20,000 bases of DNA from a virus, in IMG/VR virus record IMGVR_UViG_3300022200_002506, positions 1 to 20,000 of that record, one strand, 5' to 3'. Below are positions 1-19,078 of the stretch, one piece after another (position 1 is the first letter of the stretch; each line of letters starts with the position of its first letter). The notes beneath the pieces were generated by a model that saw only the letters and a list, made by a program, of their open reading frames with translations, did not search any database and was not told where the DNA came from. Position numbers and translations under genes: made by a program.

Positions 1-958
1 CTGTCATCTTCAGCGATAATCGCGGAAAGTTAAGCGGGAGGATGCCTATATCACCGCTGCCAGGCGAAACAGTAAGCACATCGTATGCGTATGTATAGAT
101 CGTGTCCGCTTGCCGCTTGTAATCCGTGGCCTTGTGCGCGTCTGTGAAATTGTTTGTCTCGCTTCCCTCGTACTGCTCCGCCTTAAATTTCCACGCGTGG
201 CGGAACAGGGTTGAGGCTGGCATCGCATATCCGCCGCGATAGCTTGCGCTTGCGTCAGTCGTAGCATCGCTCGAGTCCGTCACAGGCACGAGGCTGTCAG
301 TCGATTCCTCATAAAAGTGCAGTTCGCCGCCAGAGGCTATACTCTGGTGGACAAGCCCGAAGGCCTCGCCGCCAGTCCGCGTGTCAACCTCAACAGGCCA
401 TAAGGCAAGCGAAGCGCACAGCGCCTCCGAGCCTGGTGTGCTTGCGTTGGCCGTGTAGTCGCCGTACACAACCGGAAAGTATCGCCCGCTGTCAGCCTGC
501 GTGTTCGGGATGCTCAGGAAATCCCACGGCTGATTCGGCTCGATGTCAAGCTGTACCTCGGCGGCAGTCCAGCTGATCCCGCGCAAGCGGCCTGTGTAGA
601 TCTGCGTGGATTGCGTAAAGTTGCCGTTCAGGCTGCTGTAAATTCGCACCTCGTGATTCACGAAAACGCCCGCTGCCGTGTCGCGCTCAGACAGCATATC
701 GGACACCAGCTCGCCGTCGATCTTCACATTGGCAAGCGTGACCGATACATTGCTCGTCTTGCTTGTGCATTTCGCCAAGTCGATACTCTCGCGAATCGAG
801 CTGATGCTCGTAACGATCGGAAAGGCGATCGTCCCGCCGGTGGTATGGATTGATGTGTCCGCAAATTCGATATAGTCGCTGCCCGTCCCGTAGTACAGGC
901 GCACCCTCCAGTTGTCCTGAATGTTGCCCATGCGCTGGGCATCGCGGATCGTTCTCAC
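1..958 (-). CDS. distal tail / baseplate-like protein (partial, C-terminus beyond left edge)
   Basis: The frame stays open from a GTG start at 958 to the window edge, at least 319 codons. The GTG overlaps the TGA of the tape measure gene (GTGA), and GGAGG lies 8 bases upstream, which decides the start; an ATG ten codons in is the alternative. The N-terminus reads VRTIRDAQRMGN, followed by a beta-rich region with motifs such as WRVRLYYGTG, CTSKTSNVSVTLANVK, RIYSSLNGNF and IYTGRLRGISW, then FPVVYGDYTA near residue 170. The position directly after the tape measure gene is where siphophages encode the distal tail protein or baseplate hub, so I infer a tail-tip structural component. I do not recognise the exact family. 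The missing C-terminus could carry hub or receptor-binding domains. Confidence 0.75.
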   Translation of the reverse strand, partial: MRTIRDAQRMGNIQDNWRVRLYYGTGSDYIEFADTSIHTTGGTIAFPIVTSISSIRESIDLAKCTSKTSNVSVTLANVKIDGELVSDMLSERDTAAGVFVNHEVRIYSSLNGNFTQSTQIYTGRLRGISWTAAEVQLDIEPNQPWDFLSIPNTQADSGRYFPVVYGDYTANASTPGSEALCASLALWPVEVDTRTGGEAFGLVHQSIASGGELHFYEESTDSLVPVTDSSDATTDASASYRGGYAMPASTLFRHAWKFKAEQYEGSETNNFTDAHKATDYKRQADTIYTYAYDVLTVSPGSGDIGILPLNFPRLSLKMT

Positions 959-2682
959 GCCAGATTCCTCCGCAGCCTGTGCGCCAGCCTGTCAGCCAGT
1001 TCGGCAACCGTGCCCTGCTCGACAATGCCAGCCTGCAGGTTGATCGTCACGCCACCGCCGCGCGGGCCTTCCAGATTCGGTGAACTGGTCGGCGTGATCT
1101 GCACCCTTTCGCGCCCGCCGGGATTGTCACCGACCATAATCATCTGAGGCCCGCTCGTCACGAAGTCGCCACCGCGGGCAAACTTCTGCGCCTCGATCTG
1201 TGCGACATTTGCGAGGCCCATCGTGACCGTCGCAAGCATTGCCGGGATCGTCCACGGCGGGCCGGGCGGGTTGTTCAGTGCCTTGTTTGCGGCGCTGTAT
1301 GTGTTGATGATCGCCTCACCTTGTGCCAGCCGCTTCGTGAGTGCCGCGTTCCCGCCTGCAACTTTGTTTAGCTGGGCGAAGCTCCCGAGCAGGGCTCCCG
1401 TACCGCTCACGATCGCATCTCGCTTTTTCGCCAGCAGTGCAGTCGCCTCAGCTTGTTTTTTCGTCTCGTCCGTGACCAGCCCTAAAGCCTCAGCCGCTTC
1501 TGGGTACAGTCGGATAAACTCGGCGATATGCTCTTGTTCTTGCTCCATTTGGCCAAGGCGCAAGAATGTCGCCATTTCATACTCTTCCCATGCCGAGAGC
1601 AGCTCGTCTGGCGGAAGTGGTATTTCCGAAAGCGGGCCGGGCTTTACCTTGTTCGTCTCTTCATTCATTGACGCGATCAGGGCCGTGAGAGAAGCGACGC
1701 GATCTTCGGCCATCTGAAATGCAATATCGTCCCGCAGTGACTCGCGGAACTCTTCAAAGGTCAGCCGGGCGACATGGAACGCAAGTAGGTCTTCTTGCGA
1801 CGGCGCAGGCGGCCCCACGAACGTATCAGCCGCAGCCCGCATTTTTTTGATCTCGTTCGCGGTGTCGATCGCCTGCTGGTCAAGCTCTTTCATCGAGGTT
1901 GTGACTCCGGCGAGCCTTGCGATCAAGTGATCACCTGCCGCGTCCGCGATTACCATCGCGTCACCGAGGATATTGATCGGATTGTCAGCCCATCTGCCAA
2001 GAACAGACGGCACCTCGGCAAGATTCACAAGCAGATCGGTCAACCCCGCACCGATCGGCTCCAGCATATCACCCCACGCGTTACTGATCTGCTCGAGTTT
2101 ACCGGCCTGCGTTTGCGCCACCGCCTCAGCTGCGCCACCAGCCTTCTTGATGAGCGCCTCGAGAACGGATGTGAACCGCTCCATTGATCCAGCTGCGCCC
2201 GTGACCTCAATACCGTATCGGCTCAGCGCATTAGTGGAGCTGCCAAATGATTTGCCGACAAGCTCAGCCGCGTTCACCAAGTCCATCTCTTGAAGCGTCG
2301 CGAAGTCTTGCGTCACCTTGATGAGCTTCTTGATCTGCTCTTCATCCCGCGTGTAGGCCGCGAGCCGCGCCATTGCGCTGATAGTGACCTCGTCGCCGAA
2401 GGTGGTAACTTTTTGAAGTTCGCTCGCATAATTCCGCAGCGCCTTTGTGCTGCCCCGGAAAGCAGCCGAGAGCCTGGCCTCTGCCTGCTCTTGAACCTTT
2501 GCAAGCTCAATGGATTTTTTCATCCCGGCTAAGATCGCGTTCGCGCCAAAGTACGCCGCGCCAGCTGCCGCCGCCTGCTTGGCAAGCGAGCCGAGTCCGC
2601 GTGACACACCACCCAGCTTTTGCGCTGCCTGATCCGCGCCAGTGACGCCGACCTGAATCTGGTATTTACTTGTTGTGGCCAT
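955..2682 (-). CDS. tail tape measure protein
   Basis: A 575-aa protein starting MATTSKYQIQVGV. It has the alpha-helical, Ala/Gln/Glu-rich composition of tape measure proteins, an N-terminal segment like other tape measures (GADQAAQKLGGVSRGLGSL), a hydrophobic Ala/Gly stretch around residues 37-54, and a C-terminal region with GGDFVTSGPQMIMVGDNPGG, a motif common at the end of such proteins. Tape measure proteins fill the tail lumen, set tail length and are ejected at infection. The gene overlaps the frameshifted chaperone reading frame upstream by 17 bases and the next tail gene by GTGA. At 575 residues it is short for the family and implies a short flexible tail. No lysozyme or peptidase domain is visible. 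Confidence 0.9.
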   Translation of the reverse strand: MATTSKYQIQVGVTGADQAAQKLGGVSRGLGSLAKQAAAAGAAYFGANAILAGMKKSIELAKVQEQAEARLSAAFRGSTKALRNYASELQKVTTFGDEVTISAMARLAAYTRDEEQIKKLIKVTQDFATLQEMDLVNAAELVGKSFGSSTNALSRYGIEVTGAAGSMERFTSVLEALIKKAGGAAEAVAQTQAGKLEQISNAWGDMLEPIGAGLTDLLVNLAEVPSVLGRWADNPINILGDAMVIADAAGDHLIARLAGVTTSMKELDQQAIDTANEIKKMRAAADTFVGPPAPSQEDLLAFHVARLTFEEFRESLRDDIAFQMAEDRVASLTALIASMNEETNKVKPGPLSEIPLPPDELLSAWEEYEMATFLRLGQMEQEQEHIAEFIRLYPEAAEALGLVTDETKKQAEATALLAKKRDAIVSGTGALLGSFAQLNKVAGGNAALTKRLAQGEAIINTYSAANKALNNPPGPPWTIPAMLATVTMGLANVAQIEAQKFARGGDFVTSGPQMIMVGDNPGGRERVQITPTSSPNLEGPRGGGVTINLQAGIVEQGTVAELADRLAHRLRRNLA

Positions 2683-3085
2683 TTCGACCTCTCATGTGAT
2701 TCATCGCTGCGGCCTCTTCGTTTTCGATCACGATCACAGCCTCGGCGAATGCGTTCGACATCTCATCCAGCGTGTGCGCTGCTGGCGTGTGCGTTGCCCG
2801 GATCAGCCTAAAATCTTTCATCCATCGCAGCGGGTCAGGATGGAGGAACCAGTGAGCAGACGCGAAAAAAGGAAGCTGCGTGAACAGCGCGTGCCCAAGC
2901 GGCCAGCCATTCGACGCAGCTTCCGATTCAATCCGCTCAACCTCTGCCCACACTTCGCGTTCATCGTATTCGATCACCTTTCCAAGTGTCGGGCTTTGCG
3001 CGTGCCATCTGCCTGCCGCTGGCCATTCGGTATCGGGCACCCCGCACACGCCACACCATACCGACAGCAGCAGGCAGATTCTCAG
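2666..3085 (-). CDS. tail assembly chaperone, frameshift extension (gpGT-like T part)
   Basis: This frame has no convincing start of its own. It lies -1 relative to the 90-aa gene upstream and is open across that gene's stop codon. A ribosome slipping at GGGAAAC (3085-3091) would continue through LRICLLLSVWCG into VPDTEWPAAGRWHAQ and on to GRNGHNK, giving a fusion of about 229 aa (90 plus 139). A GTG at 3049 is the first possible independent start but has no clear ribosome-binding site. In lambda and many siphophages the G and GT chaperones bind the tape measure protein and recruit tail tube subunits; gene order here (tube, chaperone pair, tape measure) is the same. The slip is inferred from sequence and position, not measured. 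Confidence 0.8.
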   Translation of the reverse strand: MRICLLLSVWCGVCGVPDTEWPAAGRWHAQSPTLGKVIEYDEREVWAEVERIESEAASNGWPLGHALFTQLPFFASAHWFLHPDPLRWMKDFRLIRATHTPAAHTLDEMSNAFAEAVIVIENEEAAAMNHMRGRNGHNK

Positions 3086-3354
3086 TTTCCCGGAATCCCT
3101 CCGATGTACACATGCGCCAGGTGCTCAAGCAGGAACGACTGCTGGAAGATAGGCAAGGCTGTAAAGGTCGCGTCATCGCCCAGCCCGCTAATCTGCTCGA
3201 CGAACTCCTGCACCTTCACGAGCACCTCGTCGTCATACTCGCCGCCACGATACAGGCACCGGACGAGAGCGGCCAGCTTCATCACCTCTTTCCGAGTAGC
3301 TTCCCGCACATCAAAGGAACCGTCAAAGTTCTCAAGCTTCGGAGTAAACTCCAT
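3082..3354 (-). CDS. tail assembly chaperone (gpG-like)
   Basis: A 90-aa protein beginning MEFTPKLENFDGSFDVREAT and ending HVYIGGIPGN. The ATG at 3354 is preceded by AAGAGGTG at good spacing. It follows the tail tube gene by 10 bases and precedes the tape measure gene, the fixed place of the G/GT chaperone pair in long-tailed phages. The last three codons, CCG GGA AAC, carry the slippery heptamer GGGAAAC and are followed at once by TGA, so a minority of ribosomes should continue in the -1 frame. Function is assigned from synteny, size and the slip site; the sequence itself is too divergent for me to name a family. Confidence 0.85.
   Translation of the reverse strand: MEFTPKLENFDGSFDVREATRKEVMKLAALVRCLYRGGEYDDEVLVKVQEFVEQISGLGDDATFTALPIFQQSFLLEHLAHVYIGGIPGN
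3085..3091 (-). promoter_or_regulatory. -1 programmed frameshift slippery site GGGAAAC
   Basis: On the minus strand the gpG-like gene ends ...CCG GGA AAC TGA. The heptamer G GGA AAC fits X XXY YYZ in the zero frame. After a -1 slip the next codons are CTG AGA ATC, entering the frame that stays open to 2666. Lambda G/GT uses the closely related GGGAAAG. The stop codon directly next to the slip site may help pausing. I see no obvious strong downstream hairpin or pseudoknot. Confidence 0.85.
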
Positions 3355-3364
3355 CTGTCACCTC

Positions 3365-4390
3365 TTATGCGTTCGAGCCGACAACAACCGTGATTGCGTC
3401 AGCCGAGCCATCAAAAGCACACCGGAAGGGCAGGTCACGGAACACGCCAGCATCCTGCCCAAAGTTGTAGTTGGCCGAATCAAACACGCAATTTGCCGTG
3501 ATCGATAACTCGTTCGTGGCATCTCCGCCGTTGAATGTCAGGTCGAGCCGTTTGTCAGCCGAGCCTGCTGTCGGGTTCGCGAGCGCATAGTCAATCAGGT
3601 TTGCCGTGTTAGCATCGTACTTCACGCTGATCGAACCTGTGGCAACATATCCCTTGCCGCCAGCTGCGCCGACCGTGCAGCCCTCAGCGTGCCCGGTCAC
3701 GTTCGCTCCCCAGAATGTCGCGCCGTTGTCGAGCGAAAGGCTGAAATTATTGGTCACAATATCACTCAAGGCGATCTGCTTGGTCGTAAACCAGTTCGTC
3801 GAAAAGTACGCCGTCCCTGCTGAAGTCCAGTCACCCGGCGTGAAGGTCGAGGTCGTGCCGAGCACCCGCCCGCTAATGAAGGTAGCGCTGAAGCTGGCGC
3901 GGCCACCGTTCGAGCCTGCGTCCCATGTGATCTCAAGGGTCTTCAGGAACGCGCTGGTCAGCTGCTTTCCTTCGCCGCTGATCGGGTCGTGCAGGGCCAG
4001 TGTGAAAAAGGTCTGATTGGCAGGGTCGCCGATTACGCTGGTGGACGAATCCCAAGCGTAGGTGTCCTCGCTCGAGTCTGTGCTCTTGTTCTGGAAGACG
4101 CCCTCAAGCAGCAGCTCAAGCACGGGTGTCGTTAGGATGCCTGACACGGTCACGGTCGTGATCGCGCCAGCTGTGGTCTTGTAGATGTCGCCTACGCTCA
4201 TGACTGCGCTTCCGTCGATGCGCGGAGTCTCGTCCGTCACGACGGCTGTGGCTGTGTCCAGCGTGGGCGGCTCGGTGATGTGCAGCTCCTGAAAGCTCGA
4301 CTGTGTTGTGATCGCCGTGCCGAATGTAGTCTCTTGGGCAATCGCGCACCTGAATTGGGTCTTGCTGTAGACAGCTGTTGAAATTGCCAT
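3365..4390 (-). CDS. major tail (tube) protein
   Basis: A 341-aa beta-rich, Thr/Ser/Gly-rich protein starting MAISTAVYSKTQFRCAIAQE; the segment AIAQETTFGTAITT is typical of tail tube subunits, which often begin with an 'E..FGT' motif. The ATG has AGGAGG five bases upstream. Position between the tail terminator candidate and the chaperone pair supports the assignment. Tube proteins polymerise as stacked rings around the tape measure protein. At 341 residues it is longer than the roughly 150-250 aa of many siphophage tubes, so it may carry an extra surface domain; the central part rich in S, T and N (about residues 140-250) could be that. No sheath gene precedes it, which argues against a contractile tail. 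Confidence 0.8.
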   Translation of the reverse strand: MAISTAVYSKTQFRCAIAQETTFGTAITTQSSFQELHITEPPTLDTATAVVTDETPRIDGSAVMSVGDIYKTTAGAITTVTVSGILTTPVLELLLEGVFQNKSTDSSEDTYAWDSSTSVIGDPANQTFFTLALHDPISGEGKQLTSAFLKTLEITWDAGSNGGRASFSATFISGRVLGTTSTFTPGDWTSAGTAYFSTNWFTTKQIALSDIVTNNFSLSLDNGATFWGANVTGHAEGCTVGAAGGKGYVATGSISVKYDANTANLIDYALANPTAGSADKRLDLTFNGGDATNELSITANCVFDSANYNFGQDAGVFRDLPFRCAFDGSADAITVVVGSNA

Positions 4391-4399
4391 TGCGGCCTC

Positions 4400-4855
4400 C
4401 TACTCGATGATGTGTGTCACGGCGCAGCTCCACTCGAAGGCCACTCGCGCCAGCCCGTTCTCGTTATCTTCATCGGTCTCAGCGCTGTAATCGGTCGCGC
4501 CAATCTGTCCATCGTGCCAGCGGTATCCCTTAGCTGGCGTGTAGTCTTTGTTTTGCCGGAGCAGCTCAAACAGCCGCTCCATGAAGTTCGCCCGCTCGGT
4601 CAGGGCTTTCTTTCCGCTGGCTGCGCCGACCTTCACGATATAGGCAAAGTCGATCGTGTATCTGCGCGTTGTCGCGCCAGCGGCCTCTTCAACCAGCTCC
4701 TCACGGAAGTGTGACAGCTCAAGCCAGCTTGCGCCCTTCGGCGGGTCCGCGTCAAAGAGCCTTAGGGTTGTGTGACCGCGAAACTCAGACGACAGAATAT
4801 CTGTCAGCGGGTCGATCACATGAGTGCTTGCGATATTCGAGAATGTGATCGCCAT
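4400..4855 (-). CDS. tail terminator / tail completion protein (inferred)
   Basis: A 151-aa protein, MAITFSNIASTHVIDPLTDI..., ending AFEWSCAVTHIIE. The ATG overlaps the stop of the connector gene (TGATG). Its length, mixed alpha/beta pattern, the RRYTIDFAYIVKV segment and its position between the connector and the tail tube match tail terminator (gpU-like) proteins, which cap the tail tube and join it to the head. No diagnostic motif is visible, so the role rests mainly on synteny. A head-closure or minor tail protein is the alternative. Confidence 0.6.
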   Translation of the reverse strand: MAITFSNIASTHVIDPLTDILSSEFRGHTTLRLFDADPPKGASWLELSHFREELVEEAAGATTRRYTIDFAYIVKVGAASGKKALTERANFMERLFELLRQNKDYTPAKGYRWHDGQIGATDYSAETDEDNENGLARVAFEWSCAVTHIIE

Positions 4856-5844
4856 CAGATGCGCCTCAAGCTAATCGTGCGCCGGCCGGTTCCGGCTTCC
4901 GGCTTCCCGCCCCTGACCTCTACTTCCCACTCATCAGCGGCAACATACACGCCCGCCGTGAATCGTGCGTACATCCCCTGCCCGATGTTCTGATATTGGC
5001 AGTTGATCACTTCAGAATCAACTACCTGCGTAGTTTTCAGACCATCAGACCCAGCCACATAAGCCGAGTACGTAACGGTCGAAGTGCTGCCCTTCGTAAT
5101 CGTGCCGCCTGTCTCGATCACCACCTTAATCGCGTCGAAGGACACGGTCGGCATCCCCTCTACATCCGCAATCGTGCCGGTCGTGGTAGCGTCCATGCTG
5201 ACAGCGTTCACGATGCCCTTGCCTGCTGCCGTGCTGGTCTCGTTCCAAAGCGGAATCCGCCCATCACGCACCATGTCAAGCAGGCCAGGCTCGTTCGGAT
5301 TGCCGGGGTTGTAGACCATGCCGCGAAGCTGGGCACCGCGCTCCATGTCGTGCGGCTGGATCAGGTACGAACAGGCGAGCGTGGCTGTGGCGCGAATGAT
5401 ACTATCATCGTACTCTCGCAGGCTCTCGGACTGTGCGCCTGTGCCTGTGCGCTTGATGATCGGCTTTGAGACATACGATCTCACGAAGTCGCTTGCGTGT
5501 GCCACAGCCTCGGTCTTGACATCGCTCCACTTGCGCCCAGCCTCAAGCCTGTGCGTGGTCGCCGGGTCGTTCGTTGAGTACAGGTACACGACGTCCGCGT
5601 CTGAGTCGTAGTACCAGTCACCGTCGACGCGCACATCCGGCTGACTTGCCTCAGCATCGCCCAAGTCTTCACCGTCCCGGTACAGCTTCGTGACGTGCCC
5701 GCAGTCGTAGCACGCATAGACCTTCGCCACGCTTGTGACCGCCCAGCCGCCCAGCTCGCGCTTCACATCATAGGAGTCGATCACAGGCTCGACGGCCTGC
5801 AAGTCGGTCGTGATGTTGCAGTAGCTCTCAAAATATGAACTCAT
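4855..5844 (-). CDS. head-tail connector / adaptor protein, gp36-like (inferred)
   Basis: A 329-aa protein beginning MSSYFESYCNITTDLQAVEP. The start codon overlaps the previous stop (ATGA) and has GGAG six bases upstream. The N-terminal YCNITTDLQAVEP and the helical part around residues 110-190 (SDFVRSYVSKPI, ATATLACSYLIQ) resemble Mu gp36-like/DUF1320 adaptor proteins, which dock under the portal. Between them lies an insertion of about 70 residues with CYDCGH and DVVYLYSTND. The C-terminal 130 residues are beta-rich (GGTITKGSTSTVTYSAYVAG) and may form an extra surface domain. The protein is about twice the usual length of this adaptor class. The role is inferred from position after the capsid and before the tail genes. 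Confidence 0.55.
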   Translation of the reverse strand: MSSYFESYCNITTDLQAVEPVIDSYDVKRELGGWAVTSVAKVYACYDCGHVTKLYRDGEDLGDAEASQPDVRVDGDWYYDSDADVVYLYSTNDPATTHRLEAGRKWSDVKTEAVAHASDFVRSYVSKPIIKRTGTGAQSESLREYDDSIIRATATLACSYLIQPHDMERGAQLRGMVYNPGNPNEPGLLDMVRDGRIPLWNETSTAAGKGIVNAVSMDATTTGTIADVEGMPTVSFDAIKVVIETGGTITKGSTSTVTYSAYVAGSDGLKTTQVVDSEVINCQYQNIGQGMYARFTAGVYVAADEWEVEVRGGKPEAGTGRRTISLRRI

Positions 5845-6038
5845 CGGAGACTCCAGAAAATGAAGTTGCCAGCGAAGGCGCCGACCACGCCAGCAGCCAG
5901 CCCGGCGAAAAGGTACACGATCACACCCACCGACCAGTCGCCCGTCAGAATCTGGCGCAGGCTCTTGACCTCGTCATTCAAGGCGGCCAGCTCACGCCTA
6001 AGCCGCCGGTTCTGCTCGTGTAAGTGCTCGAGTGTCAT
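5841..6038 (-). CDS. small coiled-coil plus single membrane segment protein
   Basis: A 65-aa protein. Residues 1-32 (EHLHEQNRRLRRELAALNDE) are charged and heptad-like, suggesting a short coiled coil. Residues about 36-62 (GVIVYLFAGLAAGVVGAFAG) form one clear hydrophobic membrane segment, with LR at the end. GAGG lies five bases before the ATG. It follows the beta-helix gene and overlaps the connector gene by ATGA. I do not recognise a family. Possible roles are a holin-like membrane protein, a phage-encoded membrane anchor, or a partner of the two exported proteins encoded just upstream; the sequence does not decide between these. Confidence 0.7.
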   Translation of the reverse strand: MTLEHLHEQNRRLRRELAALNDEVKSLRQILTGDWSVGVIVYLFAGLAAGVVGAFAGNFIFWSLR

Positions 6039-6045
6039 GCTGGCC

Positions 6046-7965
6046 TCACCTGACTCTCACCACTTTTAGCGTGTCCTGCGCCTGCGCTTCCCATGTCCCG
6101 CTGCCGTTCGGGTGCGTTCCATTCAGCCAGATGTCAATGTTCATCGCGTCTGCCGCTCCGTCGCGGGTCAGCAGGTAGTCAAGCTCGACGCCCGTAATCC
6201 CGAGCGCTCGGCAAGTCGTCAGCGCGTCCATAGGACTCTCGAATCCTGGGTTGTTGGAAGCGATCACAGGATCAGTCGAAGTCGGCGAGTAGCCAATTCC
6301 AATGAAGCCTTCAGGCGTTGCGGCGGAATAAGTCAGGCCACCAGTGCCACCGAACTTGTACTCGTATGTATCAGTCGTCGTGAAATTGGTGGCCTTGAAC
6401 CAGTTCGTCGAGTCGGCAGCATCAACCACGTCTATATCAGTGTATCCGCTCGAACTGATTAGCCTGTAAACAGTCCCGCCGCCCCAATAGTTGCTTTGGA
6501 TCGTGGCCGAGTCATAGACCTGATTGTCGTCCCATGAATTCCAATCAGTGGTACTCACCGCACTGCCATAAGTGCCAAGAATCAGGTTGTCCTGGAATGT
6601 GATACCATCGCACGGCGTGTCATCTACTTGGCTGCTCATGTCGAGAACGCCCCACGAGGCGTCATCAAAGATAAACGTATTCTGGTAGATCGCTCCGTCA
6701 TTTGCGGAGCGCAAGCTGAAAACCATCGTCCTATTGGCTGTCGAAGGCAAGTCGATGGCAGTCAAGTCATACAGGTTGTCATAAATATGAAAGGTTCCGG
6801 TCTTTACGACAGTCAGCATGATTGTTGTGACGCCCTCAGCTATCTTAGTCGTTGGCCGGAAAATGTTGTCATAAACACGAATGTTCTCTGCTGCGGTCGC
6901 GTCTGAAATATCAGCACTTCCATCAAGGCCAAGCACGAGCATATGCGGGCTACAGCACATCTCGCCCCAGCTCGCGCCACCAGCACCGAGGAACGTGTTC
7001 CCTGTGACGTGTGCATAGTTCGTCCTGACCTGGCACTGCGTGGTGATATTCTCACCCTGGAATGTGTTGCCGGAAATGACCGCACTCGCGCCTTCAGCTC
7101 CACCATGTGCGACGTCATCTCCATTCATGCCGACATAGAGCTTCACATCGGTGAACGTGCAACCAGAAACCGTGATGTCTTGCGCAATACCGGATGGTGT
7201 CTCGATCTGAAGCCCTGCGTATAACATCACGGAGTCGGTCTGGAATGTGCAGTTAGTGACCGTGATGTTGCCGCCATATTCGATCTGCACCGAGTGGTAA
7301 TAACCATTCTCGAATGTGCAGCCGTCAATCTCAACCTCGCCGCTTTGTGCGCCGGTGGACTTGCTATAGTACAGCCACGCCGTGCCACCACGGAAGGTTG
7401 AGTTAATCAGACGGACTGGAATGTCATGCGCGATCTGGAGGCCATAGTTAGTGTGACCCGGGTAGTTTACTTGATTTCCATCAAGGTCTTCATATTGGAA
7501 GGTTGACTCCTCGATGCGGATCGAATCCGTGTCCGACCTGGTGGCACTGAGCGAAGGGTTGCCACTTGTCACGCCGCGCAGCTTTTGCGTGATCCCTGAA
7601 ACAAGCATATAGCCAGACCCGCGCAGCTCCACGCCTGCACAGTTGTTCATAATCATCGTGCCGTTTCGCAGCACGAAGTCATTCACGTAGTCTGCGTCGA
7701 TCACATGGTCGCTTGGGCCTGTCAAGTTGTATGTGCCGGTGTAGCCTCCGAAGTCGATCGTCAGGTTTGCCAGTGAGCCGGGAGTCGCTCCAACCGTCAT
7801 TGAGTCGGTGTAGCTTGCGATACACAGCAGTGTATCTCCTGTCGAGGCTGCGGAAATAGCGCCCTTGAGGCTCAAATGATCAGCCCCAGCATGGCCGAAG
7901 GTCAGGACTGTTGCCTGCGCCGTGCCGAAGGCCAGCAAGCAATAGATCAGAATGGTTCTCAACAT
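6046..7965 (-). CDS. exported parallel beta-helix (pectate-lyase-like) protein
   Basis: A 639-aa protein. Residues 1-18 (MLRTILIYCLLAFGTAQA) form a Sec signal peptide with a signal peptidase I site after AQA. Next comes a pectate-lyase-superfamily opening (KGAISAASTGDTLLCIASYT) and many PbH1-like rungs: EIDGCTFENG, ITVTNCTFQTD, DITVSGCTFTD, AVISGNTFQGE, AHVTGNTFLGA. Residues about 572-639 form a C-terminal module (LNGTHPNGSGTWEAQAQDTL) shared with the 101-aa gene upstream. TAGGAGT five bases before the ATG overlaps the upstream stop. Beta-helix proteins bind or cut polysaccharides, so an exported depolymerase, adhesin or virion surface protein is possible. No catalytic residues can be assigned by eye. 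A signal peptide is unusual for a virion structural protein. Confidence 0.85.
   Translation of the reverse strand: MLRTILIYCLLAFGTAQATVLTFGHAGADHLSLKGAISAASTGDTLLCIASYTDSMTVGATPGSLANLTIDFGGYTGTYNLTGPSDHVIDADYVNDFVLRNGTMIMNNCAGVELRGSGYMLVSGITQKLRGVTSGNPSLSATRSDTDSIRIEESTFQYEDLDGNQVNYPGHTNYGLQIAHDIPVRLINSTFRGGTAWLYYSKSTGAQSGEVEIDGCTFENGYYHSVQIEYGGNITVTNCTFQTDSVMLYAGLQIETPSGIAQDITVSGCTFTDVKLYVGMNGDDVAHGGAEGASAVISGNTFQGENITTQCQVRTNYAHVTGNTFLGAGGASWGEMCCSPHMLVLGLDGSADISDATAAENIRVYDNIFRPTTKIAEGVTTIMLTVVKTGTFHIYDNLYDLTAIDLPSTANRTMVFSLRSANDGAIYQNTFIFDDASWGVLDMSSQVDDTPCDGITFQDNLILGTYGSAVSTTDWNSWDDNQVYDSATIQSNYWGGGTVYRLISSSGYTDIDVVDAADSTNWFKATNFTTTDTYEYKFGGTGGLTYSAATPEGFIGIGYSPTSTDPVIASNNPGFESPMDALTTCRALGITGVELDYLLTRDGAADAMNIDIWLNGTHPNGSGTWEAQAQDTLKVVRVR
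6069..6130 (-). repeat. duplicated C-terminal module, copy B (beta-helix gene)
   Basis: The 62 bases here align without gaps to 7998-8059 with 51 matches by hand count. They encode the shared LNGTHPNGSGTWEAQAQDTL end of the beta-helix protein. The nucleotide-level similarity shows a true gene-segment duplication rather than convergence of protein sequence. Confidence 0.85.
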
Positions 7966-7974
7966 GGTGGACTC

Positions 7975-8280
7975 CTAAAATACTTTCCCGAGCCTGAGCG
8001 TGTCCTGCGCTTGGCTTTCGTATGTCCCGCTGCCGTTTGGGTGCGTGGCGTTCAGCCACAGCTTCAGGTTGAGCGGGTCTGCATCGCTGGTGGCCGACCA
8101 ATCAAGCGTGATAGGCAGGGTCGCGTTGTATGCCGCCGTGTCTGCTGCCATCGTGGTGCTGTCCCGAATCGAAGCGAGCGCGTTGATCGGCGTTTCGTAG
8201 CCTGGCTCATTCACGTTAATGACGAGCGCCTGCGCCGTGCCAAGCACCAGCAGGCAGACTGTCAGGATGGGTCTCAACAT
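7975..8280 (-). CDS. small exported protein, paralogue of the beta-helix protein's ends
   Basis: A 101-aa protein. Residues 1-18 (MLRPILTVCLLVLGTAQA) are a signal peptide ending AQA, nearly the same as in the next gene. The mature part of about 80 residues (NEPGYETPINALASI...LNATHPNGSGTYESQAQDTL) matches the C-terminal module of the 639-aa protein. The start at 8280 is preferred over an upstream start at 8310 because AAGGAA lies before it and it aligns with the paralogue's start. It follows the capsid gene after a UUCG hairpin. It is unrecognised by family; either the ancestral short form or a deletion derivative of the longer gene. Confidence 0.8.
   Translation of the reverse strand: MLRPILTVCLLVLGTAQALVINVNEPGYETPINALASIRDSTTMAADTAAYNATLPITLDWSATSDADPLNLKLWLNATHPNGSGTYESQAQDTLRLGKVF
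7998..8059 (-). repeat. duplicated C-terminal module, copy A (101-aa gene)
   Basis: Partner of 6069-6130: 51 of 62 aligned bases identical by hand count, encoding LNATHPNGSGTYESQAQDTL. The 5' ends of the two genes, coding for the signal peptides, are also alike (both start ATGTTGAGA and share GGCACGGCGCAGGC). Confidence 0.85.
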
Positions 8281-8318
8281 GGCGCAGGTTCCTTTTTTGG
8301 CGTGATACAAAGCAGCAA

Positions 8319-8336
8319 GGGGGGCCGAAGCCCCCC
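8319..8336 (-). terminator. UUCG-loop hairpin after the capsid gene (terminator or attenuator)
   Basis: On the minus strand GGGGGGC-TTCG-GCCCCCC forms a perfect 7-bp GC stem with the extra-stable C(UUCG)G tetraloop, 15 bases past the capsid stop. The run after it (TTGCTGCTTTG) is only partly T-rich, so it may terminate poorly, letting capsid transcripts dominate while some read-through reaches the downstream genes, or protect the mRNA 3' end. Confidence 0.6.
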
Positions 8337-8351
8337 GCTTAATCAGGCAGA

Positions 8352-9212
8352 TCAGGGATTGTTGAAGTTCACGATACCCGTGTCGATCATCTTGGTTGCA
8401 CCGTAGTGCAGCGCGTATCCGATGCCGTCACCGATATGCGTCGGAACCGGCACGGGACCCTTGACCCGGATGCCGCCCTGAATGGCATAACCGACCGAGC
8501 GCGGATGCCAGATGGTTGCCGTCTCATCACCCGCGCCGCCGTCGCCGTCCCAATCATCAGACACATAGATCGGCATTCCGAGCAGGACACCTTCAGCGCC
8601 GCTGGCCACAAAGCTCTGGTTGCCAAGCTCGGCTGCACTCGTGTACTTCGTGCCCCAGCTGGCAACGGAAAGCTCGAAGGCTTCCGGGCTCATGCCGAAG
8701 GCGCACTGCTTGATGTCCACACCGGCGATCTTCAGCTTGCGGTAGGCGATCAGGACATCCGTCCAGAGCACCGTGTTGTCGGTGGCGAGCGTCACATCAT
8801 TGGTCGTGGCACTCTGCACGATGCCGGCAAGGTAGGTCTCGAAAGCCTTCAGCAGGACATAGCTTGAATCCATCGCGTAGGTGTTCAGCAGATCAAGGTT
8901 CGTCTGCAGCTGGGCGATGTCCTCAAAGAGGAACGCCTCGGCGGCAGTCTGGTTGACCGTGATCGTGCCCACGCTCTCGGCAGAGCTGTAGCCCGTGTAT
9001 TCGAGAGCGGTCTCGGTGCTCTTCGAGTCAGCCGTACGTGCGCCGATCAGCGGTACGCTGACAGCCTTTGCGCCGGGTGCGAGCAGCGAGCTGTAATCCG
9101 AGCAGTAGTTCGAGAGAGTCTTGGCACTCTGGAAGTAGCCCTCCATCGCCGGGGCGAATACGGTCGGCAGCCAGTTGGCCAGCTGAGTCGTTCCGTGGTA
9201 AATATCAGCCAT
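8352..9212 (-). CDS. major capsid protein
   Basis: A 286-aa protein starting MADIYHGTTQLANWLPTVFA; AAAGGA lies eight bases before the ATG. The N-terminal pattern (NWLPTVFAPAMEGYFQSAKT), the SVPLIGARTADS strand, a central helix with VLLKAFETYLAGI, and a C-terminal part with ECRHIGDGIGYA-like segments (THIGDGIGYALHYGATKMID) fit an HK97-fold coat protein. It sits directly after the scaffold gene, as expected, and is followed by a strong hairpin, as often seen behind highly expressed capsid genes. The length is normal for the fold, and no N-terminal delta domain is evident because scaffold is a separate gene. Confidence 0.85.
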   Translation of the reverse strand: MADIYHGTTQLANWLPTVFAPAMEGYFQSAKTLSNYCSDYSSLLAPGAKAVSVPLIGARTADSKSTETALEYTGYSSAESVGTITVNQTAAEAFLFEDIAQLQTNLDLLNTYAMDSSYVLLKAFETYLAGIVQSATTNDVTLATDNTVLWTDVLIAYRKLKIAGVDIKQCAFGMSPEAFELSVASWGTKYTSAAELGNQSFVASGAEGVLLGMPIYVSDDWDGDGGAGDETATIWHPRSVGYAIQGGIRVKGPVPVPTHIGDGIGYALHYGATKMIDTGIVNFNNP

Positions 9213-9227
9213 TGTTCAGTCCTTTCT

Positions 9228-9749
9228 TTAGCGTCCGCGAAGGATCGCCTCGTTTTCTTTGAGGAACTTCAGGCCGTGCTTCGCCACGCCTTCCCTGATC
9301 TGGTCAGGTGTGAGCGATGTCGAGCCGCCCGAAGAGCCTGGCTTCGCGGCGACCACCGCCGGAGCCTTTTGTTCCGAGAGCCTTGCAACCAGCTGCTCCA
9401 GCTTGGCAAGGCTCAATCCATCAGCCAGACCTTTGTCGTCATCCGTCAGCTTCGAGATTAACGCCTCGCGGCGATCGGTCTGGTACTGATCCCATTGGCT
9501 GGCCTTTTCCTTGGCGGCTGAAAGTTCGGTCTTGTACTTTTCGAGCACCGTCTCGAACTCTCCACGCTTGGCAGCTTCGGCCTCTTCCCGCGCCTGCTTT
9601 TCAGCCAGCAGGCTCTGAAGCTCGGCCTCGGCAGCTTTGCGCCTTTCGTTCACCTCGTCAAAGCGTCCCTTTGGGATCATGACGCTCTCAGCAGCAGCGT
9701 CAGGCTGGGTCGTCGCAGGTGCGCCCTGCGGGGCGGTGGTCTCGTCCAT
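9228..9749 (-). CDS. scaffolding protein
   Basis: A 173-aa protein from the ATG at 9749 (GAAGG seven bases upstream; a TTG two codons earlier is less likely). It is highly charged and helical: residues about 27-95 (RFDEVNERRKAAEAELQSLL, EKYKTELSAAKEKASQ) form a long coiled coil, followed by a Ser/Gly-rich linker and a short C-terminal helix (IREGVAKHGLKFLKENE). This design, and a location directly before the capsid gene, are those of internal scaffolding proteins, which guide procapsid assembly and then leave. No serine protease motif is visible, so it is not an obvious protease-scaffold fusion. Confidence 0.85.
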   Translation of the reverse strand: MDETTAPQGAPATTQPDAAAESVMIPKGRFDEVNERRKAAEAELQSLLAEKQAREEAEAAKRGEFETVLEKYKTELSAAKEKASQWDQYQTDRREALISKLTDDDKGLADGLSLAKLEQLVARLSEQKAPAVVAAKPGSSGGSTSLTPDQIREGVAKHGLKFLKENEAILRGR

Positions 9750-9769
9750 TCTCAACCTTCGGAGTTAGG

Positions 9770-10228
9770 TTATTTTCCAATCCGCACAGTTTTCTCGAAC
9801 CGTGCTTCCTTTAGTGCCTTCTCAATGCCCTCATGAAAGCGATTCTTGACCTTTTCCGCAACAGGTGCGGCGAGCGGGTTTTCCCTCGTGCTGATCGCCC
9901 TTCCCATTGCCGCGTTCTCTTCGACCTTCCAGCCGAATGCAGGCCAGCCGATCGTCACGCCGTGGTTTGAGTATGCGATCTGCTGTAAGTCGTTCATCAT
10001 GTCGCCAGTCAGGCGCAGGTTCGGCTTGGCGCTGTAATCGGCTTGGCGCGGGATTCTCGGCTCGCCTGTCGTCTTGTTCTCTCGGTAGGCACGTGAGTAT
10101 TCCTTGAACCTGCCACCCACACCCTCGCCTGAACTCGTCAGCTGGCGAATCTCGCGGATCACGAACGAACCCAGCTCGCGCCACCATGCAGCGCCCAGCG
10201 TGACCGTATCCTCCAACCGCTTAGCCAT
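9770..10228 (-). CDS. virion morphogenesis protein, Mu gpG-like (inferred)
   Basis: A 152-aa protein. The ATG at 10228 overlaps the stop of the MuF-like gene by eight bases; a TTG just before it is less likely. Residues about 70-115 contain NLRLTGDMMNDL, VTIGWPAFGW and AAMGRAIS, a pattern like gpG-family virion morphogenesis proteins (an 'L.TG.L/M' turn, a beta strand with 'IG', then 'GR'). Mu encodes gpG in the same slot between MuF and the scaffold gene. These proteins are thought to act in head or tail completion. The assignment combines a weak motif with synteny. Confidence 0.6.
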   Translation of the reverse strand: MAKRLEDTVTLGAAWWRELGSFVIREIRQLTSSGEGVGGRFKEYSRAYRENKTTGEPRIPRQADYSAKPNLRLTGDMMNDLQQIAYSNHGVTIGWPAFGWKVEENAAMGRAISTRENPLAAPVAEKVKNRFHEGIEKALKEARFEKTVRIGK

Positions 10229-10946
10229 CAATCAAAGCCCTCGCGCCTTCTGGGTCAACCTCGGTCGCCTCGCTTTTCCTGATCCACTGGTGTCGGCAGT
10301 TGTAGCCGCCACCGTCGATGAACGCATTTCCGAACCTGTCCTCAATCTCGTCCCTCGTCAACTCGCCCGCTGCCATCATCTCAAGGCACTCGTCACGCGT
10401 CCGGTCATCAGCTGGGCCGCTGTACACATAGAGCGTTTCGGGCGGCTCGTTCTCAGCTAAGACAGCTCGAACACTCCGGCTGTATGTGTTCAGCGTGGTA
10501 TTGACAAGCGCCTCGACACGATCAGGGCGAAGCACGCCTTGCACGGCTTCGCGGATCAGGTTCGCCGGCCGGCCGGCGAGTACATTGCGCGTCAGCTCGG
10601 CCATCACGTCCGCAAAGTATTTGTCGCTGGCGGCCAGAAACGACCGCTGCGAAGTGACCACCAGCCCCTGCAGGCTGCCAGTCGATACCGCGCCAGCCGC
10701 CGACAGGTTGCCGAGCACGTCGCGACCGAAGGAACCGAGCACGCCATCGACAGCACCAGCCCAGCCGCTCTCCAGCTTCAGGCGCTTAAGGACTGCCGGG
10801 TCTGCCAGCTGCTCAATGATTGCGGCCTTGCTCGCGCCCTGCTCCACCAACGCCGTGACCAGCCTCACCAGCTTGAGCGCAGCCTTCTCGCTCTCGCGTG
10901 AAAAGGACGCAGCCCTCGCGTCGATCATGTCGGTAAGCTTGCTCAC
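10221..10946 (-). CDS. MuF-like minor head protein
   Basis: A 241-aa protein with a GTG start overlapping the portal stop (GTGA). The N-terminal 100 residues are helical. The C-terminal part holds the MuF/SPP1 gp7 core: VNTTLNTYSRSVRAV, then YVYSGPADDRTRDECLEMMA, RFGNAFIDGGGYNCRHQW; the Cys in DECL and in NCRH are the usual conserved pair. MuF proteins are minor head components next to the portal and may be ejected with DNA. Location immediately downstream of the portal gene is typical. No toxin domain follows the core, unlike some MuF fusions. Confidence 0.88.
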   Translation of the reverse strand: MSKLTDMIDARAASFSRESEKAALKLVRLVTALVEQGASKAAIIEQLADPAVLKRLKLESGWAGAVDGVLGSFGRDVLGNLSAAGAVSTGSLQGLVVTSQRSFLAASDKYFADVMAELTRNVLAGRPANLIREAVQGVLRPDRVEALVNTTLNTYSRSVRAVLAENEPPETLYVYSGPADDRTRDECLEMMAAGELTRDEIEDRFGNAFIDGGGYNCRHQWIRKSEATEVDPEGARALIDG

Positions 10947-12274
10947 TCAGCCCCGCCGAGCAGGTCGGCAAGACTCAGCTCGCCGCGCTGCTGGATGGTC
11001 GGCTCTTCCGCACGCTCGCGGGCAATCGTCTCCAGCCTGTCGCGCAGCATATCGTCCGAGGCATCGGGGTCAATCTCGCGCAGGTAGTCCAGCTTGGAGG
11101 CCAGCCCGTTGCCGTACTCCCACTCCCATCGCTCGCGTTTTTCCGTGTCGCTCATCGGGATATGCGGCTCGACAAAGTTCACGCCGTACTCTGGCGGAAC
11201 CGTCATGCCGACAGACTGGAGGATGATCGAGTCGATCTGGAAGCGCGTGCGCTCGAACATCCGCCAGCGCGCAAAGTCGCTCATGATCGCCTCGGTCAGT
11301 TCGACCTCCAGCAGGCGCTGATGCTCGCCGCTGGTGGCCCTGCCCTCACCAGCCCACTTCAGGCTCAGGTGATGCGCGAAGGCAACCGACTCCAGCTCTG
11401 CCCGCTGCGTTTCGATAAGCTGCCCCAAGTTCGCGCCAGCCGTCGCGAAGCTGAAGGTCTCGCCCGGCTCGAGTGACAGGATTTCCCACGGGTTCAAAAG
11501 CTGCGTGCCGTCGAGCCTTGCGTCTGTCCACGGCTGGCCAGCACCCTGAAGCATGAATGCCTGACGAAGATAGGTGCCGAGCACATTGAAAGCCGTCTGC
11601 GCGTCGAGCACATCCTGCGCCATCGGTCGCCACCAGCTGGAGCCTGCCGCGCCACGGTGGGCGAACACGACAGGAAGCACGCCATAGGGATTCACCAGGT
11701 CGGTGTTGTCTTCCGTCGGGGCCATGATCAGGCCGCTCGAGCTGACACGGAAATGAAGCTGATCCGTCCAGACCGCCCACTCCATATCTTCGCGCTTCGC
11801 CCCGGCATTGTGCAGCGGATAGACCACGCCGATAGGTTCAGGGTTCTGCGGAAGGAACAGAGGCTCGAACTCGATCAGCGGCTCGTGATACAGCTGGCCG
11901 TCTTCTGTCGTGCCGATCAGCAATGCCATTGAGCCGAGCAGGTAGGTCAACCGCTCAAAGTGCGTCATGACCTCATCGAGGTTGTCAAGCCGCTCAAGGT
12001 AGCGCTCGTCTGCTACGCGTTCCGGTGTGTCACGATACACCCCAGCCCGAGCGTCAATGATCTTGCCCGCCACGGCCTGCACACTAAAGGGAACCTGCCG
12101 GTCAATGCCGGGAGGAAAATAGCGCGCCACATCCTGATACAGGTCAACGCCCCGGTACTGATCGACAGCCCGCCAGCGCTGCGCCTGCTTGCGAGACTCG
12201 CTCCCTCCGCCAGTTCCCGCGTAATTCTTGAACGCGCCAGCAATCAGTTCAGGTGTGGGCAGCGCGACGATCAT
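10943..12274 (-). CDS. portal protein
   Basis: A 443-aa protein starting MIVALPTPELIAGAFKNYAG. GGAGG six bases before the ATG overlaps the terminase stop. It has the portal pattern: an N-terminal helical wing, an EPLIEFEPLFLPQNPEPIG strand region, NPYGVLPVVFAHRG, a stem region DAQTAFNVLGTYLRQAFML, and a C-terminal helical crown (RWMFERTRFQID). The dodecameric portal is the DNA entry and exit channel and docks the terminase. Length is normal. The position between large terminase and MuF is canonical. Confidence 0.9.
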   Translation of the reverse strand: MIVALPTPELIAGAFKNYAGTGGGSESRKQAQRWRAVDQYRGVDLYQDVARYFPPGIDRQVPFSVQAVAGKIIDARAGVYRDTPERVADERYLERLDNLDEVMTHFERLTYLLGSMALLIGTTEDGQLYHEPLIEFEPLFLPQNPEPIGVVYPLHNAGAKREDMEWAVWTDQLHFRVSSSGLIMAPTEDNTDLVNPYGVLPVVFAHRGAAGSSWWRPMAQDVLDAQTAFNVLGTYLRQAFMLQGAGQPWTDARLDGTQLLNPWEILSLEPGETFSFATAGANLGQLIETQRAELESVAFAHHLSLKWAGEGRATSGEHQRLLEVELTEAIMSDFARWRMFERTRFQIDSIILQSVGMTVPPEYGVNFVEPHIPMSDTEKRERWEWEYGNGLASKLDYLREIDPDASDDMLRDRLETIARERAEEPTIQQRGELSLADLLGGAE

Positions 12275-12276
12275 GA

Positions 12277-13500
12277 TTAGCCTCCAAAGCGAGAATGACG
12301 GACAACCTGCCGTCTGTGGATCGGATACATATACTCAATGGCGTAACTCGCAGCGTCCAGCGCGTGCGGGTCACGGTTCGCCTTGTCTATCCGGCCATCG
12401 ACCGTGCGCTTCGTGCGCTCGCAGTCATCAATCAGATGCTTGCACTTCGGGTCAATCGTCATGTGGACATTGCCGTCAGCGTCTTGCAGCATCCGGTTCC
12501 AGCTGTTCAGGCGGTCAACCTGTTCCGGAGCCGCCTTCCGGCCATCGACCTTGAATCCGTGATCCGTCAGGATCTGGTAGTCTGACTTCGGGCCGCGCAC
12601 ACTGCGGCTCGCGCCGCTGGGATCGGGAAAGATTCTCGTGACATGTGGATACTTTTCCCGCAGCATCCGCGCCATCATGGCCGTGTGGGCGTTCGTCGGG
12701 ATCACAAGCTCATCATAGTAATGCACACGGTCAGCCGCAAGCTCTCCACCGATCACAGCGACCATCGGCTCGACGTTGAAATCAAGCCCAATCCAAGACT
12801 GCGGGCCGGCCGGCACTGTTTCAGTTTTCAGCACATGACGCGCCCTGTCGAAGTTCCAAGCCGCCCGGTTCCCGCCAGTCTCGAAGCTCGCCTCGTATTC
12901 CTGTGCGTACAGGATCGGATCCATGTCCCTCCGGGCCGCATCGACCTCGGCAGGATCCACGAAAGGCGAGTCTTTTGTTTTATAGATCCAGCTCGCCCAG
13001 TCGCCCTCGTCAGGGTCTTGGCCGAGCCTGAAAAAGTCGTACATCCGATCATATCCGCGCGGGCTGCTGGTGAACAGCGCAGGGCCCTTCGATTGCGTCA
13101 GCATCGGGCGAATCACCAGCTGCCACATTTCCTGCTTGCGCCACAGCGCGAACTCATCCAACCAGACACGCGAAAGCCCGACACCCGGCAAGCCATCCGG
13201 ATTGTCCGCGCCGTGGAGCTGGATCGCGCCACCGTTTGAGAACGTCGCCTTCAGCTCGCTCACTGACAGCTGGATGTCAGGCATCTGGCGTGAAAGCCAG
13301 ACCAACAGCGGCCAAACATTGCGCTTGGCCTGCACGCGGAAAGGGCTGACGTGCCAGCGCAGCTCGCCCGGCTGGATCGGCTCAGAGCACAGCCAGGCAA
13401 AGCCTGCATGAGTCTTGCCCCACCGCCTGCCAGTGACCAGCGCCTTGAACCGCGCAGGGTTACTCAGCAGCGTCCGGATCTGTGGTGTTGACGAAATCAA
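12277..13500 (-). CDS. terL: terminase large subunit
   Basis: A 407-aa DNA-packaging motor. The ATPase has Walker A TGRRWGKT (residues 23-30), Walker B VWLDEF (112-117) with the catalytic Glu, and the coupling motif TSSP (144-147). The RNase H-like nuclease has Asp in GLDFN (238-242), Asp293 in FPDPSG, and DPHALDAASY from residue 377. The start is a TTG at 13500: no ATG or GTG lies between the upstream in-frame TGA and Walker A, and AAGG precedes the TTG. The gene overlaps the small terminase candidate by 41 bases, suggesting translational coupling. Confidence 0.95.
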   Translation of the reverse strand: MISSTPQIRTLLSNPARFKALVTGRRWGKTHAGFAWLCSEPIQPGELRWHVSPFRVQAKRNVWPLLVWLSRQMPDIQLSVSELKATFSNGGAIQLHGADNPDGLPGVGLSRVWLDEFALWRKQEMWQLVIRPMLTQSKGPALFTSSPRGYDRMYDFFRLGQDPDEGDWASWIYKTKDSPFVDPAEVDAARRDMDPILYAQEYEASFETGGNRAAWNFDRARHVLKTETVPAGPQSWIGLDFNVEPMVAVIGGELAADRVHYYDELVIPTNAHTAMMARMLREKYPHVTRIFPDPSGASRSVRGPKSDYQILTDHGFKVDGRKAAPEQVDRLNSWNRMLQDADGNVHMTIDPKCKHLIDDCERTKRTVDGRIDKANRDPHALDAASYAIEYMYPIHRRQVVRHSRFGG

Positions 13501-13786
13501 AGACCTTAATCGGCTCCGATATTGTGTGCTCGATAGTCTGCGCGTTCGGCACCTTGCCTTCAGTCCGCTCTGCGATAAACTGCACGGCCCAGCTGTTGCC
13601 CTTCAGCGCGTACTGGTAGACGGAGCGCATCACAGCGTCAAGCTTGGTCATGGTCACGCCGCCAGCCTTGACCTCTTCAAGCCCGATCTTTTCGAGAATG
13701 TGCTCGATCCGGTAGCGCTTGCGCTTGCGCCCCGGCGAGCCGCTGTTTCCAACAGCGAAGGTTCCGTCTGGGTTCCGCTCAGGCAT
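13460..13786 (-). CDS. small terminase candidate (DUF5681-like)
   Basis: A 108-aa protein with N-terminal NPDGTFAVGNSGSPGRKRKR, the 'G.F..GNSG.PGR' signature of DUF5681-type phage proteins, often encoded beside the large terminase. The rest is helical (RIEHILEKIGLEE, AVMRSVYQYALKGNS) with an acidic end (TTDPDAAE). It overlaps the methyltransferase stop by eight bases and the large terminase start by 41. Small terminases bind packaging sites and regulate the motor; size and place fit. The basic GRKRKRY stretch could contact DNA. Function is inferred from synteny. Confidence 0.7.
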   Translation of the reverse strand: MPERNPDGTFAVGNSGSPGRKRKRYRIEHILEKIGLEEVKAGGVTMTKLDAVMRSVYQYALKGNSWAVQFIAERTEGKVPNAQTIEHTISEPIKVFDFVNTTDPDAAE

Positions 13787-15005: not shown

Positions 15006-15034
15006 GGTTTTTCCCGTCTATAATCGGTGCCTGC

Positions 15035-15063
15035 ACTATGTCTTTCCACGCCCTGAAAGTCAA
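15035..15063 (-). promoter_or_regulatory. sigma70-like promoter candidate upstream of the methyltransferase
   Basis: On the minus strand TTGACT (15058-15063) and CATAGT (15035-15040) are 17 bases apart: 5/6 and 4/6 matches to the sigma70 consensus at ideal spacing. It lies in the 79-base gap between ssb and the methyltransferase, just past a UUCG hairpin. It would start transcription of the modification, packaging and head genes. Not proven; host promoter preference is unknown. Confidence 0.45.
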
Positions 15064-15065
15064 TA

Positions 15066-15079
15066 GGGGCCGAAGCCCC
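15066..15079 (-). terminator. UUCG-loop hairpin after ssb (weak terminator candidate)
   Basis: Minus-strand GGGGC-TTCG-GCCCC lies six bases past the ssb stop, a 5-bp GC stem with the C(UUCG)G tetraloop. It is a shorter copy of the hairpin behind the capsid gene. CCCCTATTGAC follows, so there is no U-tract and intrinsic termination would be weak. Confidence 0.45.
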
Positions 15080-15084
15080 CAATG

Positions 15085-15519: not shown

Positions 15520-15530
15520 ATTCCAGCCTC

Positions 15531-16544: not shown

Positions 16545-16563
16545 CTGCCCCCCGTTTTTTCGG

Positions 16564-16591
16564 AATATACGCCGAAGCGCTTACAGATCAA
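16564..16591 (-). promoter_or_regulatory. weak promoter candidate before the phosphoesterase gene
   Basis: On the minus strand TTGATC (16586-16591) and TATATT (16564-16569) lie 16 bases apart: 4/6 and 5/6 consensus matches. The -10 sits in the 36-base gap before the phosphoesterase start, inside a small inverted repeat (TTCGG...CCGAA). It could give the phosphoesterase and ssb an extra promoter. Chance occurrence is possible. Confidence 0.3.
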
Positions 16592-17357: not shown

Positions 17358-17376
17358 TTCGCCCTCCTGTTGTCGT

Positions 17377-18100: not shown

Positions 18101-18110
18101 GATCCCTCCC

Positions 18111-18821: not shown

Positions 18822-18823
18822 GG

Positions 18824-19021: not shown

Positions 19022-19038
19022 TGCTTTTCCTTTCTTTG

Positions 19039-19055: not shown

Positions 19056-19078
19056 TTGATGAGCGATAAAAGAAGCCA

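Follow-up and report, generated by a model that had tools for sequence, protein, structure and literature searches.

Adjacent phage paralogues with predicted signal peptides share a C-terminal module, one of them around an apparently exchangeable beta-helix core

The locus and its phage

The DNA analysed here, referred to as the window, is a stretch of 20,000 nucleotides (positions 1 to 20,000 of the IMG/VR virus record IMGVR_UViG_3300022200_002506) that derives from a tailed phage, with profile support for TerL, MCP and the tape measure. On the minus strand the genes follow the order TerS, TerL, portal, MuF-like, g153, scaffold-like, MCP, EXP101, BH639, TM65, g329, g151, tube-like 341, g90, g127 and tape measure; for TerS (which has a DUF5681 match), portal, tube and scaffold the names rest on position and inference, and for the MuF-like gene on position. 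The genes considered here lie between MCP (9212–8352, minus strand) and g329 (5844–4855, minus strand), and consist of EXP101 (7975..8280), BH639 (6046..7965) and TM65 (5841..6038), all on the minus strand and closely packed, the gaps being 9 bases long after EXP101 and 7 bases long after BH639.

MCP and the two genes for predicted exported proteins are separated by a terminator- or attenuator-like hairpin, GGGGGGC-UUCG-GCCCCCC (8314..8339, minus strand). A strong GC hairpin after MCP is also found in relatives (contigs with L numbers), with the UUCG loop in L005, L009 and L010 as in the window and a UCCG loop in L008, and it may attenuate transcription, such that the genes behind it are made less than the capsid protein. 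TM65 encodes a 65-aa protein with a coiled coil and one transmembrane segment that is 86–94% identical between relatives; it is always the next gene after the helix gene in this clade, and overlaps the stop codon of that gene (ATGA) in L005 and L009. The space between MCP and g329 often holds accessory genes, since distant relatives carry glycosyltransferase-like and P-loop sulfotransferase-like genes there (recognised by eye; L018:5917–7208).

One tail gene is split over both ends of the 26,198-bp contig, as residues 1–318 and 361–669, and is whole in L015; because the contig ends hold two parts of one gene, we infer that the genome is circularly permuted, about 26.3 kb long and almost fully covered by this contig. 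The tail genes seem to end with proteins of 669 and 340 aa. The latter has conserved ends and a variable middle in the relatives compared, and could be another receptor-binding candidate. No tyrosine integrase was found in the contig. The clade of the window comprises only about six contigs in the collection searched, and MCP, BH639 and the helix protein of L053 (see below) had no match in phage and plasmid records. The nearest terminase relatives, at 31–34%, come from Bryobacterales, an Acetobacter-labelled MAG, Dyadobacter and Prochlorococcus, with lower matches in Chlorobium and Neomarinimicrobiota; a host assignment by this route was rejected, as matches scattered across these lineages point to no single host.

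Several other features of the window were observed. MCP is a mosaic when window 8840–9336 is compared with L005 3822–4320, its first part being divergent and the rest 86% identical in DNA, and this break inside the gene marks a second recombination boundary near the genes for exported proteins. At 13779–15005 (minus strand) a ParB N-terminal domain is fused to an N6/N4 DNA methylase (PF02195 and PF01555), and at 15531–16544 (minus strand) a helix-turn-helix domain is fused to a calcineurin-like phosphoesterase; homologues of the latter fusion adjoin g329 in other phages (L021–L025).

Two adjacent paralogous genes

EXP101 encodes 101 aa, in which a signal peptide is joined directly to a C-terminal module. 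The signal-peptide codons (MLRPILTVCLLVLGTAQA; 8227..8280, minus strand) were recognised by pattern and by 77% DNA identity to the start of BH639, and the stand-alone module of about 83 aa (7978..8226, minus strand) by alignments. BH639 encodes a predicted exported beta-helix protein of 639 aa, identified by its open reading frame and a match to Pfam PF13229. It is made up of signal-peptide codons (MLRTILIYCLLAFGTAQA; 7912..7965, minus strand), close to where DNA identity to L005 ends (7914), a variable beta-helix core (6334..7911, minus strand), delimited by Pfam, comparison with L005, a structural model and G+C, and a C-terminal module (6049..6270, minus strand), defined by DNA identity to L005 and by HMM matches in L005, L009 and L053.

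The earlier note on this DNA had described adjacent paralogues with a common signal-peptide-like start and a common C-terminal module, and the open reading frames and alignments uphold this description. The N-termini are identical at 41 of 53 bases over the signal-peptide codons, and the C-termini at 38 of 83 aa (46%; BLASTP E 4e-19). The module DNA agrees at 67 of 86 bases (blastn E 5e-16), and its best 62-base stretch has 52 matches, one more than the 51 of 62 previously counted. This likeness is far beyond chance, and the two genes are paralogues.

EXP101 itself is a real gene under purifying selection, since dN is 0.057 and dS 0.332 between the window and L005 (dN/dS about 0.17) and the gene is preceded by its own ribosome-binding-site-like AGGA; from this comparison the rows for the second half of MCP and for the two window modules, which are not in frame, were left out.

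Signal peptides were judged by pattern (a charged n-region, a hydrophobic core and AxA) and not by a trained predictor. An AxA-type pattern is present in BH639, EXP101 and their homologues, and eight such N-termini, several of them with little other similarity, have retained it. The infected cell would thus probably export BH639, and for both proteins we infer Sec export late in infection.

The beta-helix core and its replacement in related phages

The Beta_helix profile PF13229 matches residues 203–325 of BH639 at 26.1 bits, just above the cut-off of 25.9, and scores higher in several relatives (48.7 bits in L005, 51.0 in L053 and 33.3 in L012), with the L009 protein below the cut-off at E 1e-5. 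In a weak AlphaFold model of BH639, helix-like ladders appear only at about residues 183–444. The roughly 550 residues of beta-helix proposed earlier are therefore borne out for these stretches and not for the rest of the span. Structure prediction of the two proteins, which had been proposed as a check, gave poor models, as 5–7 alignment rows yielded a mean pLDDT of 44.3 for EXP101 and 43.5 for BH639, and the module folds in these models were dropped as evidence. A fold search with the BH639 model returned no match below E 0.02; its top, non-significant matches were polysaccharide-acting helices, namely tailspike depolymerases, AlgG and chondroitinase B. BH639 had no sequence match to tailspikes or fibres in phages, PHROGs and PDB sequences, or to any PDB sequence by phmmer, including XepA and YomS, and neither BH639 nor EXP101 had a Pfam or PHROG match to a peptidoglycan hydrolase or endolysin domain.

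L005 and L006 keep the gene order of the window, with identities of 90–91% for EXP101, 86% for TM65 and 94% for g329, against 29% overall for the helix protein. DNA identity between the window and L005 runs at about 86% through EXP101 to position 7914, the end of the BH639 signal peptide, where it stops; it returns at 6197, for the last ~150 bases of the gene and the downstream genes, and the intervening core defies alignment. Following the identity 15 bases at a time gave much the same limits, with the 5' boundary at about 7905–7914 and the 3' boundary near 6197. The helix proteins of the window, L005 and L009 have cores that can barely be aligned with one another (best BLASTP E 0.002), and in all three the G+C of the core (0.535, 0.526 and 0.538 respectively) lies below that of its flanks, which in the window are genes of 0.58–0.62, the drop being confined to the core. 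Because the flanks are 85–95% identical, the boundaries fall at the signal peptide and the module, and the core cannot be aligned, the middle of BH639 is evidently exchanged as a cassette between constant ends in related phages.

Other members of the clade fill the same slot in their own ways. In L009 the whole slot is taken up by a 715-aa protein that has a signal peptide, a core of its own and a module at 40% identity, and EXP101 is missing; in L008 a BH-type signal peptide directly follows MCP, in a contig that breaks off after 34 codons of the gene. The slot of L010 holds the start of a further signal-peptide gene, which is cut by the contig end (L010:10931–11116); it begins ...VLGTIGDSWTSNGQ and has a GDS motif, perhaps esterase-like, and its assignment as an SGNH/GDSL esterase was rejected, as Pfam gave no support.

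The C-terminal module

The module spans ~75–83 residues, with conserved P, D56, W73 and DTL-like C-terminal positions, and a low-confidence helix is predicted near its start in both proteins. Searches against Pfam, PHROGs, NCBIfam and PDB sequences returned nothing above noise: the best PDB sequence for the module profile was a designed protein at E 1.6, and EXP101 and both module pieces had no NCBIfam match at E <= 5 and no Pfam match above the cut-off. The NCBIfam library includes models of T9SS tails, and a T9SS sorting domain was rejected, as the module matched no NCBIfam profile. The module was also absent from 595 bacterial genomes (396 of the Dyadobacter phylum and 199 of the Neomarinimicrobiota phylum) in a run made without a positive control. 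The profile search of phage and bacterial proteins that had been suggested thus yielded no match in either the libraries or these genomes.

Related phages were more informative. The end of the L053 helix protein matches the module, with E 7.6e-4 for an HMM built without L053 (next non-member 5.9) and E 2.1e-5 by hhalign. The search of relatives proposed earlier, for the module on other central domains, was thus answered in part: it recurs on different helix cores in L005, L009 and L053, and no centre other than a beta-helix, or nothing, was seen in the relatives searched. In distant phages (L037:6555–6965, L038:1437–1859 and L040:5818–6228), the gene directly before the g329 homologue codes for another kind of small protein with a signal-peptide-like start; these proteins, of ~140 aa and with ~40% mutual identity, match no Pfam family and were rejected as module homologues (hhalign 0.3%).

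These observations bear on whether the module does no more than cap the C-terminal end of the beta-helix, with EXP101 as a deletion remnant that is being lost. So far the module has been found only after beta-helices or a bare signal peptide, and EXP101 is absent beside MCP in L008 and L009, as such a reading would have it. However, the low dN/dS of EXP101 (about 0.17) speaks for purifying selection, the gene stays 90–91% identical in L005 and L006 while the neighbouring helix is replaced, and the module is kept across helix cores that can hardly be aligned (BLASTP E about 0.002), which together make a cap and its remnant improbable. Since L009 and the unrelated L053 carry the module on other beta-helices, it does not consist of ordinary last rungs; it also stands alone in EXP101, and its sequence is unlike that of rungs, with a helix predicted at low confidence. 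The comparisons with L005, L009 and L053 largely support the modular view of the earlier note: the module is inherited as a unit of its own, and the core can be acquired, lost or replaced while both ends are conserved.

Direction of change

A helix protein with the module is present in every relative with a fully readable slot, whereas EXP101 is confined to the window, L005 and L006; among the bearers of the module L053 is the most distant, and it has the helix form only. Because the helix protein is in all relatives and EXP101 in some, loss of the helix after duplication is likelier than gain. The simplest account would be that the helix gene was duplicated and one copy then lost its core by an internal deletion that spared the signal peptide and the module. 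A module tree does not contradict helix loss, with two of its four inner branches unresolved, and as the module is too short for the tree to resolve the order, the direction rests on gene distribution. Duplication with either gain or loss of the helix had been proposed; the paralogy stands, and gene distribution makes loss the likelier course.

Lysis cassettes and unrelated phages

L053 belongs to a phage contig of 35.3 kb whose capsid is unrelated (of the PHROG 1328 type, where the window has 267), and encodes a 653-aa predicted exported helix protein. The helices of L053 and L012 share 78% identity although the capsids of these two phages differ, the MCP of L012 being 47% identical to that of the window; the predicted exported helix protein thus passes from one phage lineage to another. 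L053 carries its helix gene inside a lysis cassette, in the order DUF2279-like exported gene, helix gene, transmembrane protein, C92-like amidase and M15 endolysin. In the window clade, homologues of these lysis genes (25–48% identity) follow the tail genes, and the helix gene is placed outside that cassette, behind MCP and among virion genes; a separate M15-like endolysin or peptidase is present in the phage (L017). The helix gene adjoins a small transmembrane gene in the window clade, L053 and L012, directly upstream of the helix gene in the last case, and these transmembrane proteins have no mutual similarity.

In L144:3424–4306 (contig 22923–23805) an exported DUF2279-like protein adjoins a C92/NlpC-like amidase, and the lysis cassettes of L017 and of the unrelated L053 contain homologues of both.

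Proposed function

We tentatively propose, at somewhat below even probability, that BH639 is a late, Sec-exported protein acting on the cell envelope or its glycans, with a swapped recognition core and a constant docking module, that EXP101 provides bare modules and that TM65 may contribute a membrane step. The host Sec system would carry BH639 and EXP101 across the inner membrane late in infection, where the exchanged helix would recognise or cleave a variable surface glycan of the host (capsule, exopolysaccharide, O-antigen or another envelope polymer), so that progeny could leave or spread. The constant module would dock to a constant partner, which may be itself in an oligomer, EXP101 or an envelope component, and EXP101, as a duplicate without the helix, would supply bare modules that are mixed into the oligomer or fill docking sites; the hydrophobic TM65 next door may belong to the same membrane step. 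This proposal is favoured because the L053 helix gene lies in a lysis cassette homologous to that of the window clade, the signal-peptide-like start is kept in all homologues, no integrase was found in the contig and the top, non-significant fold matches are polysaccharide-acting helices. The paralogy of the two genes, the cassette swap, the G+C drop limited to the core, the module on the helix protein of the unrelated L053 and the similar helices of L012 and L053 also speak for it. It is weakened by the mean AlphaFold pLDDT of 44, by fold matches no better than E 0.02, by a clade of only about six contigs and by the position of the helix gene among virion genes in the window clade.

That position supports the main rival, in which BH639 is a tailspike, another receptor-binding protein or a head fibre, its hydrophobic start being a virion anchor or ignored, and its module a trimerisation or attachment end. 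BH639 lies just after MCP, where the distant relatives L042–L051 carry a large tail-fibre gene; a variable core between constant ends is typical of phage adhesins; and BH639 has the only beta-helix detected in the near-complete 26-kb genome, where the 669-aa and 340-aa proteins appear to be the last ones encoded by the tail genes. Tail adhesins are, however, normally cytoplasmic, and clean Sec-type signal-peptide patterns are a feature of every homologue, EXP101 among them, a protein without any helix that could be attached. Moreover, the 340-aa last tail protein, with its variable middle, could itself be the receptor-binding protein, and the L053 helix gene stands in a lysis cassette. A virion tailspike is hence considered unlikely.

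Predicted export, the variable core, the core-less duplicate and the lack of a match to endolysin families would also suit a factor exported to the surface of the infected cell, where it would hide or alter the receptor, for superinfection exclusion or the protection of progeny from debris, with EXP101 as a helper. This we regard as rather improbable: a late-operon position downstream of the MCP hairpin is late for exclusion, the absence of an integrase argues against a role in lysogeny, and no match was obtained in a defence library. A further reading, improbable as well, is an extracytoplasmic adhesin or depolymerase, in which Sec-exported, interchangeable helix heads would be assembled through the module with the head-less EXP101, on the envelope or on released virions; if true, one cassette swap would change surface specificity and leave the virion genes untouched.

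Known systems and biological meaning

The closest precedent for the proposed envelope-acting pair is that of XepA and YomS, in likeness of layout, with no homology or membership claimed. XepA of the Bacillus subtilis prophage PBSX is exported late in phage development and is absent from mature particles, the smaller YomS of SPbeta corresponds to the C-terminal domain of XepA alone, and both form pentamers via that domain (PMC6834076). The systems are thus alike in having a phage protein that is exported late, as is predicted for BH639, and a smaller form with only the shared C-terminal domain. They differ in that XepA consists of two beta-sandwiches and has no beta-helix, and that XepA and YomS belong to two different prophages whereas BH639 and EXP101 are adjacent in one genome; by location, the helix gene is within the lysis cassette in L053, and the cassette of the window clade comes after the tail genes.

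Tailspike depolymerases (P22, HK620, K5A and the Klebsiella and Acinetobacter types) resemble BH639 in their right-handed beta-helix, variable centre, constant ends and presumed glycan target, but are virion parts with an N-terminal virion-binding domain and without Sec signal peptides, and show no significant sequence or fold match to BH639. Bacterial secreted right-handed beta-helix proteins (PF13229 or NosD-like) have a signal peptide, as is predicted for BH639, and share the pectin-lyase-like N-cap, the beta-helix and the Pfam match, whereas BH639 is phage-borne, lies in a late operon and ends in a module that was not found in the sampled bacterial genomes. Signal-peptide endolysins of the fOg44 Lys44 type are Sec-exported phage proteins that act outside the inner membrane (PMC6116005), and are comparable in export during infection, which is predicted here; unlike them, BH639 has no peptidoglycan hydrolase domain, and the phage has a separate M15-like endolysin.

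The layout of BH639 and EXP101 suggests a modular tool with which the phage might act on bacterial surfaces that vary. Phage adhesins and depolymerases swap cores between fixed ends as virion parts; here the same kind of evolution is seen in a probably exported protein that is paired with a core-less paralogue and recurs among the lysis genes of an unrelated phage. If confirmed, the module would represent a new small domain family without a profile in the libraries searched, and exported, specificity-swapping envelope proteins would form an under-described layer of phage–host interaction.
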